From contig JALHLK010000048.1 of the NCBI GenBank assembly GCA_022844565.1, positions 1-38,015 of the forward strand: a stretch of 38,015 nucleotides of DNA, given 5' to 3'. The notes beneath the pieces are model-generated. The model was not told the DNA's origin and did not search any database. It saw nothing but the letters and a program-made list of their open reading frames with translations. The translations under genes and the position numbers were made by a program. Below are positions 3,667 to 15,591 of this stretch, piece after piece (position 1 is the first letter of the stretch; each line of letters begins with the position of its first letter). This stretch comes from Saprospiraceae bacterium (lineage in GTDB: Bacteria; Bacteroidota; Bacteroidia; Chitinophagales; Saprospiraceae).

Positions 3667-3727
3667 AATCATGTAAACCATTTGTTAAATTATGTAATGC
3701 CTGCAACAAGTATTAAACCCACTTTTA
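3667..3727 (+). promoter_or_regulatory. Tandem 21-bp-spaced operator and weak -7 box upstream of osmC
   Basis: The half-sites are AATCATGTAA at 3667-3676 and AATTATGTAA at 3688-3697, 21 bp apart start to start. CACTTTTA at 3720-3727 stands where the other three copies have TAnnTTTG, 22 bases after the second half-site. This -7 box is the weakest of the four. A transcript starting here would have a leader of about 160 bases before osmC. Confidence 0.6.
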
Positions 3728-3894: not shown

Positions 3895-4311
3895 ATGATA
3901 CGAACAGCAACAGCACATTGGGAAGGTGATTTAAAAGAAGGCAAGGGCTCCCTTACTACAGCAAGCAACATTTTAAAGCAAACAAACTACAGTTTTAAAA
4001 CACGGTTTGAAGATGGGGCAACAGGAACAAACCCCGAGGAATTATTGGCCGCAGCTCATGCTGGATGCTTTACGATGGCTGTAGCTGCCTTGCTCACTCA
4101 AAAAAAAATAACTCCAAAAGCGTTGGATACCGAAGCAACCTTAACAATGGAAGGATTAAGTATTACAAGTATTCATTTGTCTATTACAGGTTTAGTACCA
4201 GGAATTACTGCTGATGATTTTACAGCAATTACAAAAGATGCAGAAAAAAACTGCTTGATTTCAAAGGTTTTAAACATCACAATTATTTCTGACGCACATT
4301 TAAAAAGCTGA
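3895..4311 (+). CDS. osmC: OsmC/Ohr family peroxiredoxin-like protein
   Basis: This 138-residue protein belongs to the OsmC/Ohr family, which reduces hydroperoxides in the cytoplasm with two cysteines. The catalytic pair is C58 in AAHAGCFTMA and C120 in AEKNCLISK. R37 and the glutamates in TNPEELLAAAH are the conserved active-site partners. Length and motif spacing match the OsmC branch more than Ohr. It is the first gene of an operon; the MDR reductase follows after 19 bases. The upstream tandem operator is shared with katG, which supports induction by oxidative or electrophile stress, although the inducer is inferred. The exact reductant is unknown; lipoyl or bacillithiol systems are possible. 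Confidence 0.88.
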   Translation: MIRTATAHWEGDLKEGKGSLTTASNILKQTNYSFKTRFEDGATGTNPEELLAAAHAGCFTMAVAALLTQKKITPKALDTEATLTMEGLSITSIHLSITGLVPGITADDFTAITKDAEKNCLISKVLNITIISDAHLKS

Positions 4312-10270: not shown

Positions 10271-12568
10271 CTATTCGTCCTTCACATCGTACCGATCAAG
10301 CATCATCACTTTGTTCCACGCTGATACGAAATCATTCACAAAGCGCTCATTTCCATCATCAGCTCCGTAAACTTCAGCAATGTTGCGTAGTTGCGCATTG
10401 GAACCAAATATCAAATCGCAGCGGGTCGCTGTGTATTTTGTCCTTCCACTTTTCCGGTCATTGATGTTAAACAGCATTTCGTTTTCACCTTGAGGAACCC
10501 ACTCATAGTCCATGCTGGTTAGTACCTGGAAAAAATCATTAGACAATTGCCCAGGGTGGTCAGTAAATACACCGTGTTTGGAGTAATCGTAATTTTGGTC
10601 CAATACTCGAAGTCCTCCTACTAAAACCGTCCATTCTGGTGCATTTAATGTCAATAGTTGGGCACGGTCAAGGAAGATTCGTTCTGAAGGTACACGGTAT
10701 CCTATTTTATCATTATGGTAGTTTTTAAATCCGTCAGAAACAGACTTCAAGTAATCAAAACTTTCTACATCAGTTAGTTCTTGAGTAGTGTCCATACGTC
10801 CTGGGGTAAAAGGCACACTAACTTCCGTACCAGCATCTTTGGCTGCCTTTTCAATAGCTGCACAACCACCTAGAACCACTAAATCAGCCAGAGAAACTTT
10901 CTTGTTACCCAATTGACTAGCATTGAAATCACTTTGAATTGTTTTAAGCTTATCAAGAACCTTATTAAGTTCAGAAGGTCTATTCATAACCCAATTTTTC
11001 TGTGGTTCCAGTGCTATGCGAGCTCCATTGGCGCCACCTCTTTTGTCAGAATGGCGATACACAGCGGCTGATGACCAAGCCGCTGAAACTAGAGACGAAA
11101 TGCTTAAGTCACTGGCGAGGATCTTGTTTTTCAAGTCGGCCATGTCAATACTGGTAACCAATTCATGATTGCAAACTGGAATTGGATCTTGCCAAAGCAA
11201 ATCCTCTTTTGCTACTTCAGGACCCAAATAGCGAGCTTTTGGCCCCATATCTCTATGCGTTAATTTATACCAAGCTTTTGAAAAAGCTTCTGTGAAATAG
11301 TCAAAGTCGTTTAAAAATTTCTTACATACTACGTTATAGGCAGGATCTACCTTTAATGCAATATCAGAAGTCATCATCATCAAATCCTCCATCTTTCCAT
11401 TTAGATGTGCATTTGGAGTTTTTGGAGCACTTGAATCCATCGGAGTCCATTGGAGGGCTCCAGCCGGGCTTTTAATTTTTTTCCATTCAAATTTGAACAG
11501 GTTGATCAAGTAGTTATTGTCCCATTGTGTAGGATCAGGCGTCCATGACCCCTCAATCCCATTGGTCATTGCGTATTGAGCAAATCCCGTACCTTCTGGG
11601 TTCTGCCAGCCCATACCCATGGCCTGAATAGGTGCTGCTTCTGGTGCAGGACCTATCTTACTGGCAGATACCATACCGTGACTCTTCCCGAATGCATGTC
11701 CACCTGCAATTAAAGCTACAGTTTCTTCATCATTCATCGCCATACGCTTAAATGATTCTCGAATGGCTCGTGCAGAATCCATAGGTTCTCCATTACCACC
11801 AGGTCCTTCTGGGTTTACATAAATTAGTGCCTGATGGGTAGCAGCGAGCGGATTTTCAAGGTCTCGATTCTCATCCGAAGGTTCTCCTTCCCAGCGAAGC
11901 GTTTGGGTCACCATTTCATCGGGATGACCATCGTAGTATTCGCCCACTTTTGATTCCTTGAATGGCTTACCGTTCCAGAATTCTGGACCCCAGTAGGTAC
12001 TGCGGTCGGGTTCCCACGCGTCACGTCTTCCTCCTCCAAAACCAAAGGTAGGAAAATTCATGATTTCTAGAGCACAATTACCAGTCAAAACCATTAGGTC
12101 TGCCCAAGAGAGCGCAGCACCGTACTTTTTCTTTATTGGCCAAAGAAGGCGTCGGGATTTGTCCGTATTCCCATTGTCCCACCAAGAGTTGATGGGAGCA
12201 AAGCGCTGCATCGCTTGTCCTGCACCACCTCGGCCGTCGGCGATACGATACGTACCTGCTGCATGCCATGCCATACGAACCATTTGCGGACCGTAATTAT
12301 TGTAATCTGCTGGCCACCAATCCTTTGAATTAACAAGTAAAGTCTTAATATCCTGCTTAAGTTGCTGGAAATCAATTTTATTAAAAGCTTCTTTATAATT
12401 CTCGTCACTCATGGGATTGGCTGCAGGCTGGTCCTGATGCAGCAGCTCCACCTGTAAACGGTTGGGCCACCAATCATCAACCTGGGGATGTGTGCCAATT
12501 GCTCCACCTATTCGGGTACCCCGAAATGGACACTTGGCGAGATTTTCTGGATTATCACTATTTTTCAT
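10271..12568 (-). CDS. katG: Catalase-peroxidase KatG
   Basis: This 765-residue haem enzyme breaks down hydrogen peroxide and also acts as a peroxidase. The distal active site is R98, W101 and H102 in [13 protein letters not shown]. The residues of the Met-Tyr-Trp cross-link needed for catalase activity are present: W101, Y250 in [11 protein letters not shown] and M276 in FKRMAMND. The proximal haem ligand is H291 in [11 protein letters not shown]. The second, haem-free peroxidase-like domain fills the C-terminal half, giving the normal bacterial length. No export signal is seen, so it is cytoplasmic. It is a single gene with its own promoter and a tandem operator about 75-135 bases upstream. 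Confidence 0.97.
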
Positions 12569-12641: not shown

Positions 12642-12702
12642 CAAATATCAATCACATCACTTGGATAAGTGTTACATAATTTGTGATATGAGTATCATAA
12701 TT
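12642..12702 (-). promoter_or_regulatory. Tandem 21-bp-spaced operator and -7 box of katG
   Basis: On the minus strand, half-sites AATTATGATA (12693-12702) and AATTATGTAA (12672-12681) are 21 bp apart. The -7 box GATATTTG (12642-12649) begins 22 bases after the second. Similarity to the other copies extends upstream (AAATGTTTG, 12703-12711). The predicted transcript start is near 12635, giving a leader of about 70 bases before katG. No TTG -33 element is needed if the proximal half-site replaces it. Confidence 0.7.
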
Positions 12703-12799
12703 CAAACATTTAAGTCGATACTTTATTTTAACCTAAAATAGAATGATAAACTGTACATAATTGGGGATTAAGTTGATTAACCGGCGAAATTTCCTACAT

Positions 12800-13180
12800 T
12801 TATAATTGAAGAACATCCGTAGGTGTTACAACTAAAACTGTCTTGTCCCCTCTTATAGCAATAGGTTGTTTAAGAATTTCAGGATTCTTTTGAATCATTT
12901 TAATCCAATCATCTGGAGATAGATTTTGTGATTCCAAATTGATCGGTTCAAGTTGTGAGTCTAATAAATCATTGTCCTGATTTATTAGATCTTTTAACTC
13001 CATTCCTAACCGGCCGGCAATTTCTAAGATTTGCGAACCAGTAATTGGTGTTTTTGATATGTCTATGACGAAAACAGGGATGCCTTGCGCTTTAGCATAT
13101 ACCAAAGTTTGTTTGGCCCTGTTTGAGTTTTCGATACAGTATAGCGTTATTTGTTGGTTATTTGTTTCGATTTGTGCCAT
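12800..13180 (-). CDS. ArsC/Spx-like thioredoxin-fold protein
   Basis: This 126-residue protein resembles the ArsC/Spx/MgsR family. An N-terminal strand is followed by C15 (LYCIENSNRAKQ), then an alpha/beta core, a conserved PITGSQI loop, and the C-terminal signature PIAIRGDKTVLVVTPTDVLQL-like with the family 'RP-x-x-x-x-G-x-K' pattern. Only one cysteine is present, so it lacks the Cys-x-x-Cys of Spx and the extra cysteines of many arsenate reductases. It might be a thiol-stress sensor or a bacillithiol-linked oxidoreductase; the function is inferred. It lies between katG and the YihY gene on the same strand. An operator-promoter of the katG type is found 285 bases upstream of its ATG. Confidence 0.65.
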   Translation of the reverse strand: MAQIETNNQQITLYCIENSNRAKQTLVYAKAQGIPVFVIDISKTPITGSQILEIAGRLGMELKDLINQDNDLLDSQLEPINLESQNLSPDDWIKMIQKNPEILKQPIAIRGDKTVLVVTPTDVLQL

Positions 13181-13464
13181 AATTAATGTTTTAATAGAAT
13201 TTATATTTGCAATGAATGATTCTCATCAGAGCTCTTTTTAATTGGCAAAATTGCACCTCTGCCTTGTCACTTATTCCATTGAATTTATCCATAAGAAATA
13301 GCTAATGGAATACTGCATAAAATATTATTCAAATATGATATCATTTCTTGTTTGGCTTTTCGGTAACAATTTTCAATACATCATGGGTTGGCTAATCTAT
13401 TGATTGTATAAAGCTTTTGAATCGATACATTCATTTTATCTTTTTAACAGATTAGTTTCTTATC
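13181..13464 (-). other. Long putative 5' leader of the ArsC-like gene
   Basis: The stretch between the predicted transcript start (about 13458) and the ArsC-like ATG holds no convincing gene. A 17-codon ORF on the minus strand (13383-13436, starting MNVSIQKLY) is followed in frame, after its TGA, by about 30 open codons. Stop density is near what chance predicts for this base composition. It may be an untranslated leader or the remains of a small gene. Confidence 0.3.
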
Positions 13465-13525
13465 CAAAGGTAATGAGTTTTCACTAAGAGAGTCTTACAC
13501 AATTTTGAGAATGTGTTACATCACT
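13465..13525 (-). promoter_or_regulatory. Tandem 21-bp-spaced operator and -7 box (third copy)
   Basis: On the minus strand, half-sites AGTGATGTAA (13516-13525) and AATTGTGTAA (13495-13504) are 21 bp apart. A perfect TAnnTTTG box, TACCTTTG, lies at 13465-13472, again 22 bases after the second half-site. The flank 13526-13534 (AAAAGTTAG) resembles the AATGTTTG flank of the katG copy. It points towards the ArsC-like gene. Confidence 0.65.
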
Positions 13526-13593
13526 CTAACTTTTACGGTAGGCAATTTTTCTTGAATAAAATTTAAAGAACTGGACTTTTGAAAAGCGCACAG

Positions 13594-14496
13594 CTAATTG
13601 GAGTTAAAATGAATATCTGATTTTGCAATTTCGGTCGGAACAACCCTACCCGAAATGAAATCGGCATAGGCGCGAGTAAATTCTGCACCAAAGAAAACAA
13701 TCATTGAGGAATATGAAACCCAAAGCATAATTAAAATAATCGAACCTGCAGCCCCATATCCATCGCCGGGGTTTAATTTTCCAAAATATAATCCCAAACC
13801 GTATTCTCCTATATAAAACAAGAATGCAGTAACAATAGAACCAATCCACACATGTTTCCATTTTATTTTTGCATCCGGTAAAAATTTGAACATCAAAGCA
13901 AACAAAACGGTAAGAATTATAAAAGATAAAATGATATTAACTACATGAAGGGTCACAAAAAATGTTTCAGAAAAATTGCCCGACAACCAATTGCCAAAAG
14001 AGGAAAGTAACGCGGAAATAACAAGTGAAATTAACAATAAAAACGCAATTGTAACGATTAGTCCGAATGAAAACAAACGGATCCTGACAAAACTCCAAAT
14101 GCCATTTTTCGATTTATCCAACTTAACTTCCCATATGATATTTAAAGATTTTTGTAACTGTGCAAAAACGGTTGTGGCACCCACAATCATGATAATAATT
14201 CCAATGATTGTTGCCAAGAGTGAATTTTTTGCTTGGCTGGCCTCTAAAATAATATTCTGAATCTGCTTAGCAGCATCAACACCCATTGTAGATGTGAACT
14301 GGGCTGTTATTCGATTATTTACAGCATCGTTTCCAAAAAAATAACCGGCAGATGTTATAATAACTACCAACAACCCAGGTAATGCAAAAATTGCATAATA
14401 GGCAATTATTGCACTTTCGCGAAACGGATCTTTTACCCACCATTTCTTAAGCGCTTTTTTTAAAATTGAATAGAAATTTTTAAATGGTATTTTCAT
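13594..14496 (-). CDS. YihY/BrkB family inner membrane protein
   Basis: This 300-residue protein of the YihY/BrkB (formerly called RNase BN) family has about six membrane helices: near 28-52, 96-120, 138-165, 182-208, 218-240 and 246-270. The family motifs ESAIIAYYAIFALPGLLV (N-terminal), FGAEFT (near the C-terminus) and GAAGSIILIMLWVSYSS are present. The family's transport role is not settled. It lies 37 bases downstream of the methionine-rich lipoprotein gene on the same strand, so the two are probably co-transcribed. Relatives often neighbour stress genes in Bacteroidota (general impression, not checked). Confidence 0.85.
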   Translation of the reverse strand: MKIPFKNFYSILKKALKKWWVKDPFRESAIIAYYAIFALPGLLVVIITSAGYFFGNDAVNNRITAQFTSTMGVDAAKQIQNIILEASQAKNSLLATIIGIIIMIVGATTVFAQLQKSLNIIWEVKLDKSKNGIWSFVRIRLFSFGLIVTIAFLLLISLVISALLSSFGNWLSGNFSETFFVTLHVVNIILSFIILTVLFALMFKFLPDAKIKWKHVWIGSIVTAFLFYIGEYGLGLYFGKLNPGDGYGAAGSIILIMLWVSYSSMIVFFGAEFTRAYADFISGRVVPTEIAKSDIHFNSN

Positions 14497-14533
14497 TCCT
14501 ATCTTTTATCTCAAATACCTTTACTATGAATTA

Positions 14534-14983
14534 TTAATGATGCGGTTTATTTGGATCTTTCTTTTTATCCATGTTCATGTCTTTTTTTTCTCCCTTCATC
14601 TTTTGCATCATCTCCATCATTTCCATATTCTCCATCATCGATTTACACATTCCGGACATCATCGTCGAATCTCCTTTTGACATTTCCATCATTCCCGACA
14701 TCATACCCTGCATCATGCCGGGGTTATCTTTCATCATCTTTTTCATCATTTCCTTTTGCTCCATCATCATATTCATTTTTTCATTTTCCTGCATCATCAT
14801 TTTGCCGTTCTTGCTGTCCATTAGCACCTGCATCATTTCTTTAGCCATTTCTTTATCATTGGCGATTGTGGTCATGATTTCATTTTTTGATTCGGTTTTT
14901 GAAAGCATTTTTTGTGTCGATTGACAACCTGCTATACTTATTAACAAAGCGATCCATAAAGCAGTCTTAGGTAAGTTATTCAT
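14534..14983 (-). CDS. Methionine-rich lipoprotein, probably metal-binding
   Basis: This 149-residue lipoprotein has a signal peptide and lipobox SIAGC (Cys20). I count 38 methionines (about 25%), concentrated between residues 47 and 129 in MM, MMM, GMM and EMMEMM clusters. Histidines occur only at the end (PHH) and there is one mature cysteine besides the lipid-bearing Cys20. Met-rich envelope proteins commonly bind Cu(I) or Ag(I), or act as sacrificial oxidant sinks; both fit the stress neighbourhood, but the function is inferred. The segment NEIMTTIANDKEMAKEMM resembles part of the neighbouring frameshifted secreted protein, suggesting a distant family tie. Low complexity on the opposite strand produces spurious Ser/Phe-rich ORFs. 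Confidence 0.8.
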   Translation of the reverse strand: MNNLPKTALWIALLISIAGCQSTQKMLSKTESKNEIMTTIANDKEMAKEMMQVLMDSKNGKMMMQENEKMNMMMEQKEMMKKMMKDNPGMMQGMMSGMMEMSKGDSTMMSGMCKSMMENMEMMEMMQKMKGEKKDMNMDKKKDPNKPHH

Positions 14984-15183
14984 GATTTTTATTTGTTTAA
15001 GATTAATAATAAATTTTACATTAACTATTTAAGGACTTCGATTGACTTAAATTTGGCATGATTTTAATGACATTTTGTTTTCAATAATTTTCTTCTTCAC
15101 TAAGTATTCTTCATTGTTAATTCCCCTTGTTGCAAATCGCTTTTGCAAAATGCCAAACGGTGAATCCTATTTCTTTAGTTGTC

Positions 15184-15487
15184 CTAAAAAGTAATAAGGT
15201 GACGTTTGATATTGCTTCCTGAGCATATGTCCATCATGTTATCCATCGTTTTTAATCCCTTTGCTTTGTCTTCTATCATCATGCAGCATGATGTAGATGC
15301 CCTAATATTGCCATTTTGCTTAATTGCATCCATTACTTCTTTCGTGTAAACAACATTGTCCATGAGTTCGGTAATTACTTTTGCTCGGGTGTCTTCGTTG
15401 TTGATTTCAGTTGTTGAAGAAATTGCCACATTGTGTAAACTAAAACATCGCTGCAAGGGCAAGAAATAGAACTGTTAGATTTTTCAT
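15184..15487 (-). pseudogene. Small secreted Met/Cys-containing protein, frameshifted in the signal peptide
   Basis: From the ATG at 15487 the reading is a signal peptide, MKNLTVLFLALAAMF, that meets TAG at once. Removing one T from the TTTT run at about 15441-15444 joins it to SLHNVAISSTTEINN and an open frame to the TAG at 15184, giving exactly 101 codons. The mature part has DNVVYTKEVMDAIKQNG and the Cys/Met segment TSCCMMIEDK. It lies under its own operator-promoter, with the ATG about 30 bases after the predicted start. The frameshift could be a real loss, phase variation in a short homopolymer, or a sequencing error. Confidence 0.65.
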
Positions 15488-15520
15488 TTTGATAATTTAT
15501 TCCAGTAAATATTTGTACTA

Positions 15521-15581
15521 CAAAGGTCAACGTATTTAAAGAAATGGACATTACATAATTAGAAGGAAGAGTTACATGATT
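15521..15581 (-). promoter_or_regulatory. Tandem 21-bp-spaced operator and -7 box (fourth copy)
   Basis: On the minus strand, half-sites AATCATGTAA (15572-15581) and AATTATGTAA (15551-15560) are 21 bp apart, and the -7 box GACCTTTG is at 15521-15528. Beyond the half-sites the flank AATGTTTG (15582-15589) equals that of the katG copy. The ATG of the small secreted gene is 33 bases downstream of the -7 box. Its second half-site, AATTATGTAA, is identical to those of the osmC and katG copies. Confidence 0.7.
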
Positions 15582-15591
15582 CAAACATTGG

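Follow-up and report, generated by a model that had tools for sequence, protein, structure and literature searches.

The window analysed here, a 38-kb stretch of DNA (38,015 nucleotides), is contig C48 of a 5.59-Mb genome, below called the source genome, which is of Bacteroidota type as judged by its σA promoter boxes and its relatives. It carries four copies of a tandem operator, two direct half-sites whose starts lie 21 bp apart, and these sites, the genes behind them and the regulator that may bind them are the subject of this work. An earlier interpretation made from the letters alone (the sequence-only reading) had described three of the sites, all on the minus strand, and its positions and geometry were exact: in each of the three the start-to-start distance of the half-sites is exactly 21 bp, and a -7 box begins 22 nt after the proximal half-site. 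Its description of the half-sites as close to a consensus does not extend to the distal half-site before katG, which is degenerate at intact spacing, and the flank that it regarded as shared, AATGTTTG, is found at only two of the three, since the ArsC site carries AAAGTTAG there. A fourth site, on the plus strand upstream of the OsmC gene, had been missed. The sites, their promoter boxes and the genes that follow them are:

12672..12702, minus strand: katG tandem operator, a 21-bp direct repeat (matrix score 37.9), with the degenerate distal half-site AATTATGATA at 12693-12702 and the proximal half-site AATTATGTAA at 12672-12681
12642..12649, minus strand: -7 box GATATTTG of the katG promoter, starting 22 nt past the proximal half-site
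10271..12568, minus strand: katG, catalase/peroxidase HPI of 765 aa (NCBIfam PRK15061, 1116 bits, cut-off 981), 3' of the first site
13495..13525, minus strand: tandem operator of the ArsC/Spx-like gene, AGTGATGTAA at 13516-13525 and AATTGTGTAA at 13495-13504 (matrix score 51.0)
13465..13472, minus strand: -7 box TACCTTTG of the ArsC/Spx-like promoter, starting 22 nt past the proximal half-site
12800..13180, minus strand: ArsC/Spx-like gene, 126 aa (Pfam ArsC, 27.2 bits, cut-off 24)
15551..15581, minus strand: third tandem operator, AATCATGTAA at 15572-15581 and AATTATGTAA at 15551-15560 (matrix score 60.3)
15521..15528, minus strand: -7 box GACCTTTG of the third operator, starting 22 nt past the proximal half-site
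15184..15487, minus strand: small-protein gene after the third site, with a signal-peptide-like start and a longer open reading frame (ORF) in separate frames
3667..3697, plus strand: fourth tandem operator, AATCATGTAA at 3667-3676 and AATTATGTAA at 3688-3697 (matrix score 53.0)
3720..3727, plus strand: weak -7 box CACTTTTA of the fourth operator
3895..4311, plus strand: OsmC-family peroxiredoxin gene (Pfam OsmC, 9.6e-18; NCBIfam TIGR03562, 164.5 bits, cut-off 85.8)

A weight matrix trained on 50 sites from a scan whose pattern contained the box, a training set that partly includes the four window sites, finds exactly four sites in the window, with scores from 37.9 to 60.3; the best score of the reversed matrix is 1.6. 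The consensus of 50 sites with at most one mismatch reads (A.GTGT)GAAT.ATGTAA-N11-AATTRTGTAAC/T-N21-.AnnTTTG. Since columns before the distal half-site that were absent from the search pattern are conserved as well (A at -11, G at -9, T at -8 and G at -7), this half-site extends over about 17 bp. The consensus shows no TTTG-like -33 element, and the proximal half-site stands in its place. The σA consensus of Bacteroidota is given in passages of PMC7366714 as a -7 element TAnnTTTG and a -33 element TTTG, and these together with passages of PMC9723704 identify the.AnnTTTG box as the housekeeping type. The promoters thus do not have the box of an alternative sigma factor but that of the.AnnTTTG housekeeping type; no search for sigma-factor genes was made.

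Scanning the source genome for the full pattern, as the sequence-only reading had proposed, gave 14 matches with up to two mismatches, on 6 contigs, against 0 for the reversed control, and behind every one of the 14 an ORF begins 36-284 nt past the -7 box. For the half-site pair alone, with up to three mismatches, there were 32 matches against 14 for the reversed pattern, so that many of the 32 will be chance matches. Although this pair pattern contained no box,.AnnTTTG was found at offset 22 in 11 of the 30 matches checked (the stretches of the other two were not retrieved) and at nine other offsets once each. Matches scattered inside genes, which would have spoken against an operator, are nearly absent (2 of 129 matrix matches lie inside a same-strand ORF of more than 600 nt). 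The same geometry appears in 907 kb of DNA that flanks the regulator in 80 named relatives, loci picked by protein and not by site: same-strand RTGTAA pairs number 61 at 21 bp, against a mean of 1.4 (maximum 7) at the other spacings from 7 to 60, and.AnnTTTG follows at +22 in 37 and at +21 in 5 of the 61. As 21-bp controls in this DNA, the reversed hexamer gave 1 pair, and GTAAT[AG], whose letters partly coincide with the motif (TGTAAT), gave 6 against a mean of 1.1. With the matrix, 101 matches were obtained in 52 of the 80 loci, and none with the reversed matrix.

The 14 sites of the source genome precede genes for OsmC, KatG, the ArsC/Spx-like protein, the small interrupted gene, a cupin, one AraC copy, a lipoprotein, YtxH, an lmo0937-type membrane protein, a PNPOx-like protein, an OsmY-like protein with three BON domains, a CbpA-type DnaJ, a DUF326 protein (Csp1-like, below cut-off) and an outer-membrane-like protein, so that many unlinked stress genes stand under one operator. 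Two sets of proteins encoded downstream of sites in relatives were annotated, one of 117 proteins and one of 75 (75 of 94 downstream ORFs, after removal by hand of 15 regulator genes and 4 others). Among the 25 commonest of their 76 and 32 families, respectively, are ice-binding proteins (3/117 and 11/75), cupins (4), P-type ATPases (4), BON (3), CsbD (3), Mn-catalase (2), DUF892 (2), Usp (2), YtxH (2 and 1) and Ferritin/Dps (1/75). The ice-binding family (PF11999) is the commonest annotated family after the sites (loci L210, L203, L251, L247, L207, L102 and others). An approach that starts from the gene avoids the annotation bias of such lists because the genes are picked before the sites: among 18 regulator-bearing genomes, 10 of 15 CsbD genes have a matrix match of at least 24 within 400 nt upstream, and 0 of 15 with the reversed matrix, several of the CsbD sites being in the training set and that of G094 (L283) lying outside the list of sites from the pattern scan. 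We regard the sites as probably operators of a general-stress regulon that reaches across Bacteroidota. The proposal of a stress regulon with a 21-bp tandem operator placed for activation is thereby supported at the level of sequence, with targets that look like a broad general-stress set more than a peroxide or redox set, since none of the other katG genes examined has a same-strand site upstream.

Upstream of 33 other katG genes no same-strand site was present (30 loci, those listed among the best katG genes of 62 genomes, and 3 further loci), and katG was accordingly rejected as a core member of the regulon. Informative among the 33 loci are six: five come from genomes that have the stress-type regulator described below (G034, G048 and G095 of the 30; G012 and G029 of the further 3), and the sixth is the second katG of the source genome. 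In G012 a site scoring 26.1 lies near katG in the opposite orientation. A peroxidase match is lacking altogether in ten of the order sample's 16 stress-type genomes. The source genome's second katG (G000:C8:11857-13710, upstream region L330) is without a site; the window copy, which has one, scores lower against the Pfam peroxidase model. The katG gene of the window looks like a local recruit to the regulon.

The sequence-only reading placed the regulator outside the window, and candidate genes were indeed found on contig C12 of the source genome, where sites occur several times around small AraC genes:

60893-61480, 57009-57542 and 55399-55959 of contig C12, minus strand: three full-length copies, of about 190 aa, of a protein that combines an HMA with an AraC domain (HMA-AraC)

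Operator and protein family occur together well beyond this genome. In the order sample, 55 of 99 genomes have a family member at E 1e-15; sites are present in 28 of these 55 (108 sites) against 4 of the 44 others (4 sites), with 6 matches for the control, and 91 of the 112 sites fall in the 15 genomes with the closest family members. The phylum sample of 148 genomes gave a similar picture, with sites in 24 of 36 genomes having a member at E 1e-60 (71 sites) against 10 of 112 without (22 sites; control 8), and outside the order the figures are 19 of 31 against 9 of 108. Five genomes with a weaker member, at E 1e-37 or better, account for 17 of the 22 sites in the phylum genomes counted as lacking the regulator. 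Moreover, a site lies within 260 nt of the regulator gene in 38 of 100 stress-type and 9 of 47 CxxC-type genes, two classes defined below, and the reversed matrix gives 0 of 153 genes.

The AraC part of the protein is recognised by Pfam: HTH_18 and HTH_AraC match 21 of 21 members (own protein 53.4 bits, cut-off 33.6), and the AraC/XylS type of DNA-binding domain, about 100 C-terminal residues with two helix-turn-helix motifs, is present. A profile of the 21 members matches AraC domains within positions 69-180 (best E 4.4e-13, positions 74-176) and the HMA domains of copper ATPases and CopZ within positions 2-69 (best E 4.2e-7, copper ATPases, positions 3-61); Pfam HMA is found in 8 of the 21. 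By these profiles the N-terminal domain is assigned to HMA. The canonical metal site of HMA domains is CxxC, which probably makes CxxC the ancestral form; in the stress-type clade it is mostly SxxC. Among 76 members, 23 carry the S form (MVSxRC), 47 the C form (MVCxRC) and 6 are unclear, all 80 closest named relatives have SxxC, S10, R12 and C13 being invariant in 40 of 40 aligned. The tree unites the stress group in one clade, supported at 100/95 by a bootstrap that had not settled; of its 54 rows, 50 are of the S form, 2 of the C form and 2 unclear. The tree holds 30 of the 80 named relatives, and its midpoint root serves for drawing only; from the 78 regulator matches of the order sample G097:C15, G094:C66, G028, G061 and the partial G094:C101 were left out, leaving 73 for the site and neighbour counts, of which the tree omits one more that is shorter than 175 aa.

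The two types also differ in their neighbours, which were classed roughly, by simple text patterns on the next ORF. A P-type ATPase or HMA protein follows 15 of 47 CxxC-type genes against 0 of 100 stress-type genes (Fisher p 6e-9), whereas for stress-type genes the next ORF is a PAS histidine kinase/receiver protein in at least 23 of 100 cases (CxxC type, 0 of 47) and a cupin in 11 of 100 (CxxC type, 0 of 47). The own regulator copy is followed by a PAS kinase/receiver protein and a lone receiver. Very small Cys-rich, metallothionein-like ORFs follow the CxxC-type genes L178, L182 and L172, and in two of these cases a matching or weak site lies in the gap; by the text patterns, a metallothionein-like next ORF was counted in 2 of 47 CxxC-type genes. 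Three remote SxxC members (G096:C400, G097:C4 and G010:C201; L186, L187 and L189; MVSDSC/VSRSC) form a separate, well-supported group outside the counts of 100 stress-type genes, and behind two of their genes stand ORFs that resemble each other (MxKKKxNVAVTGLNN...), a hint that the HMA-AraC family may have a third function.

Because the stress clade is nested among CxxC-type proteins that often lie beside copper ATPases, the stress regulator probably arose from a copper-responsive one, if the sequence relationships are a guide to function. Both stress-type and CxxC-type genes are flanked by the site, from which it follows that the half-site is older than the stress role. Within the own family f1, the stress type was found in the source genome only, whereas seven of the other eight sampled genomes (G017, G031, G044, G057, G068, G079, G086 and G093) have the CxxC type and one has none; with this isolated occurrence among nine genomes, the stress type has a patchy distribution and may pass from one lineage to another.

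The best explanation of these observations is, with good confidence, a general-stress regulon controlled by an HMA-AraC activator at σA promoters, as read from the sequences. In the proposed mechanism, an AraC-type dimer would occupy both half-sites of the direct repeat, whose spacing equals two turns of the helix. These promoters combine a good -7 box with the lack of a good -33 box, and the proximal subunit would replace the -33 contact, touch the housekeeping sigma factor and recruit the polymerase, as in class II activation. The regulator may activate its own gene in a part of the genomes. Most stress-type members appear to have lost the first cysteine of the CxxC and kept the second, and the signal could enter through this invariant cysteine, through the neighbouring PAS kinase/receiver proteins or through the amount of regulator.

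Several observations weigh against this explanation. The Pfam HMA model alone misses the own protein, and katG is not a conserved target. The stress families are a minority of the 117 and 75 downstream proteins, most of which have no stress annotation; many are lipoproteins, outer-membrane or other envelope proteins, and many are unannotated. At the strict pattern, 27 of the 55 family-positive order genomes are without a site, among them four with a stress-type copy, G008, G029, G033 and G053, for three of which (G008, G029 and G033) the matrix finds weaker sites. Conversely, eight genomes with one site each have no clear member (G086, G005, G030, G046, G224, G159, G107 and G181): a search at 1e-10 found none in the first seven, the four order genomes with sites and no member included, and the HTH part only in G181. 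G020 has sites with solely a CxxC-type member. Upstream of the three own copies there are one strong site (47.2), one weak site (18.2) and none, respectively. Finally, loss of the cysteine does not coincide with a broad regulon, as 6 sites occur in G088, a genome at the clade's base whose regulator retains CxxC; the other CxxC row inside the clade is G073. Cysteine loss as the cause of regulon growth is thus unsupported, and this one genome suggests that the regulon grew before the loss.

We consider it unlikely that the regulator is still a sensor of copper or of a thiol-bound metal and that the apparent stress genes are a copper-defence set. Such a role would fit the HMA domain, its second cysteine, invariant in 40 of 40, and the four P-type ATPases among the 117 downstream proteins; a Csp1-like copper-storage protein (below cut-off) is among the source-genome targets. 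However, the 80 closest named relatives all have SxxC, none of the 100 stress-type genes has a P-type ATPase or HMA protein as its next ORF, and CsbD, BON, YtxH, ice-binding and OsmC are by their annotated families not copper genes. The DUF326 protein in question (G000:C2:166901; L140:995-1324) is a possible relic of copper control.

Rather improbable, too, is a third regulator that binds the operator and has the stress genes as well as the AraC gene under its control. Co-occurrence and gene linkage do not separate a regulator from a target, the site is upstream of only 17 of 100 stress-type regulator genes, and PAS kinase/receiver genes lie next to at least 23 of the 100, with a lone receiver in addition behind the own copy. 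Yet the sites track the family down to its CxxC-type copies, which have other neighbours (9 of 47 flanked), and a two-turn direct repeat beside the core promoter is the arrangement of AraC-family activators. No other protein of the linked set had a DNA-binding domain in scans that covered part of the genes.

LytTR sites, too, are typically direct repeats spaced by some two turns, and the operator might belong to a LytTR-type response regulator with the AraC gene as a mere fellow target, which we hold to be very unlikely. LytTR genes are present in 88 of the 99 order genomes and their number correlates weakly with that of the sites (Spearman 0.23, p 0.02), but presence of the stress-type AraC does so better (0.49, p 3e-7). 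Sites are absent from six of the nine genomes with at least 17 LytTR genes, the richest (44 and 39 genes) included, and two more of the nine have a single site, whereas G048 has 10 sites with 2 LytTR genes, G078 has 5 sites with one, and G073 and G040 have one site each with no LytTR match. No systematic linkage to LytTR genes was seen, one weak site (24.6) lying before one of them (G096:C424). The sequence-only reading had already doubted a LytTR regulator; the poor correlation of genes and sites across the order weakens this candidate, and the domain is absent from the HMA-AraC regulator. That the sites are chance, AT-rich low-complexity matches or a recent repeat family has practically no probability left: the 14 control matches against 32 for the pair without its box are outweighed by the 14 against 0 with it, by the fixed 21-bp spacing and 22-nt box offset in loci picked irrespective of site and by the silent reversed matrix in 907 kb, and the DNA between the half-sites differs from site to site.

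Around the window sites, the small-protein gene (15184-15490, minus strand) looks interrupted: a signal-peptide-like start of 15 residues runs into a stop, and the longer ORF is in another frame, which looks like a sequencing error or a decayed gene. The ArsC/Spx-like protein reaches 46.5 bits against the NCBIfam Spx/MgsR family, under the cut-off of 75. Two further genes possibly form one transcription unit with the small-protein gene:

14534..14983, minus strand: Met-rich lipoprotein-like gene, an ORF with no Pfam family matched
13594..14496, minus strand: YihY/BrkB membrane protein gene (Pfam BrkB, 1.2e-49)

At 346-2456 on the plus strand, a tyrosine-recombinase-like ORF overlaps a transposase-like ORF (both named by eye). 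Both are in the left part of the contig, some 1.2 kb ahead of the OsmC site, and the window's stress genes may sit on a mobile or acquired segment.

Among known systems, the half-sites araI1 and araI2 of E. coli form a direct repeat of 21 bp. The system proposed here, an HMA-AraC activator at σA promoters, shares with E. coli AraC at araI1/araI2 the AraC-type DNA-binding domain and direct-repeat half-sites two helical turns apart. A passage of PMC6018408 describes the shift of AraC to araI1/araI2, with the proximal half-site next to RNA polymerase, a placement that the present operator would share. The differences are an N-terminal HMA domain in place of the arabinose-type cupin domain and a stress regulon of many operons at Bacteroidota σA promoters (TAnnTTTG). 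LytTR regulators resemble it in direct repeats about two turns apart and differ in that the HMA-AraC regulator has no LytTR domain. The CxxC-type HMA-AraC proteins have the same two domains, most with 28-55% identity to the own copy, and in 9 of 47 cases are flanked by the same kind of site, but they keep CxxC, often have P-type ATPase or HMA neighbours and have few sites per genome. CsbD, YtxH, OsmC, OsmY/BON, Dps, DUF892 and DnaJ belong to the regulons of σB in Bacillus and RpoS in E. coli. These classes are shared with the present targets, whereas here, to judge from the -7 box, an activator would act at housekeeping-type promoters in place of an alternative sigma factor. No family name was found for the CxxC-type HMA-AraC proteins, NCBIfam has no named model for the architecture (other AraC equivalogs score below cut-off for the own protein), and no paper on this regulon or regulator was found in one open-access library, subscription papers and preprints lying outside its scope. 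Neither "AraC" nor "general stress" occurs in the main text of a Flavobacterium transcript-start map (PMC9723704). Known are thus the AraC-type DNA-binding domain and the operator geometry; what appears to be new is a regulon of general-stress type run by an activator from a metal-sensor lineage.

On the question of how Bacteroidota coordinate their general stress genes without RpoS or σB, the present analysis offers a candidate regulator, a precise operator, promoter positions and lists of targets for named organisms, the named relatives with the regulator including Flavobacterium, Chryseobacterium, Dyadobacter and Echinicola. A wider claim stands about evenly between right and wrong in our estimation: Bacteroidota would largely run their general stress response through one activator that evolved from a copper-sensing HMA-AraC protein, not through an alternative sigma factor, its metal site cut down to a single invariant cysteine (SxxC), its copper regulon exchanged for a stress regulon with the same half-site, and its input arriving via the cysteine or via a PAS kinase/receiver. 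If this is true, Bacteroidota would have a general stress response without a special sigma factor, and a family of metal sensors would have become a stress regulator with its DNA site retained.

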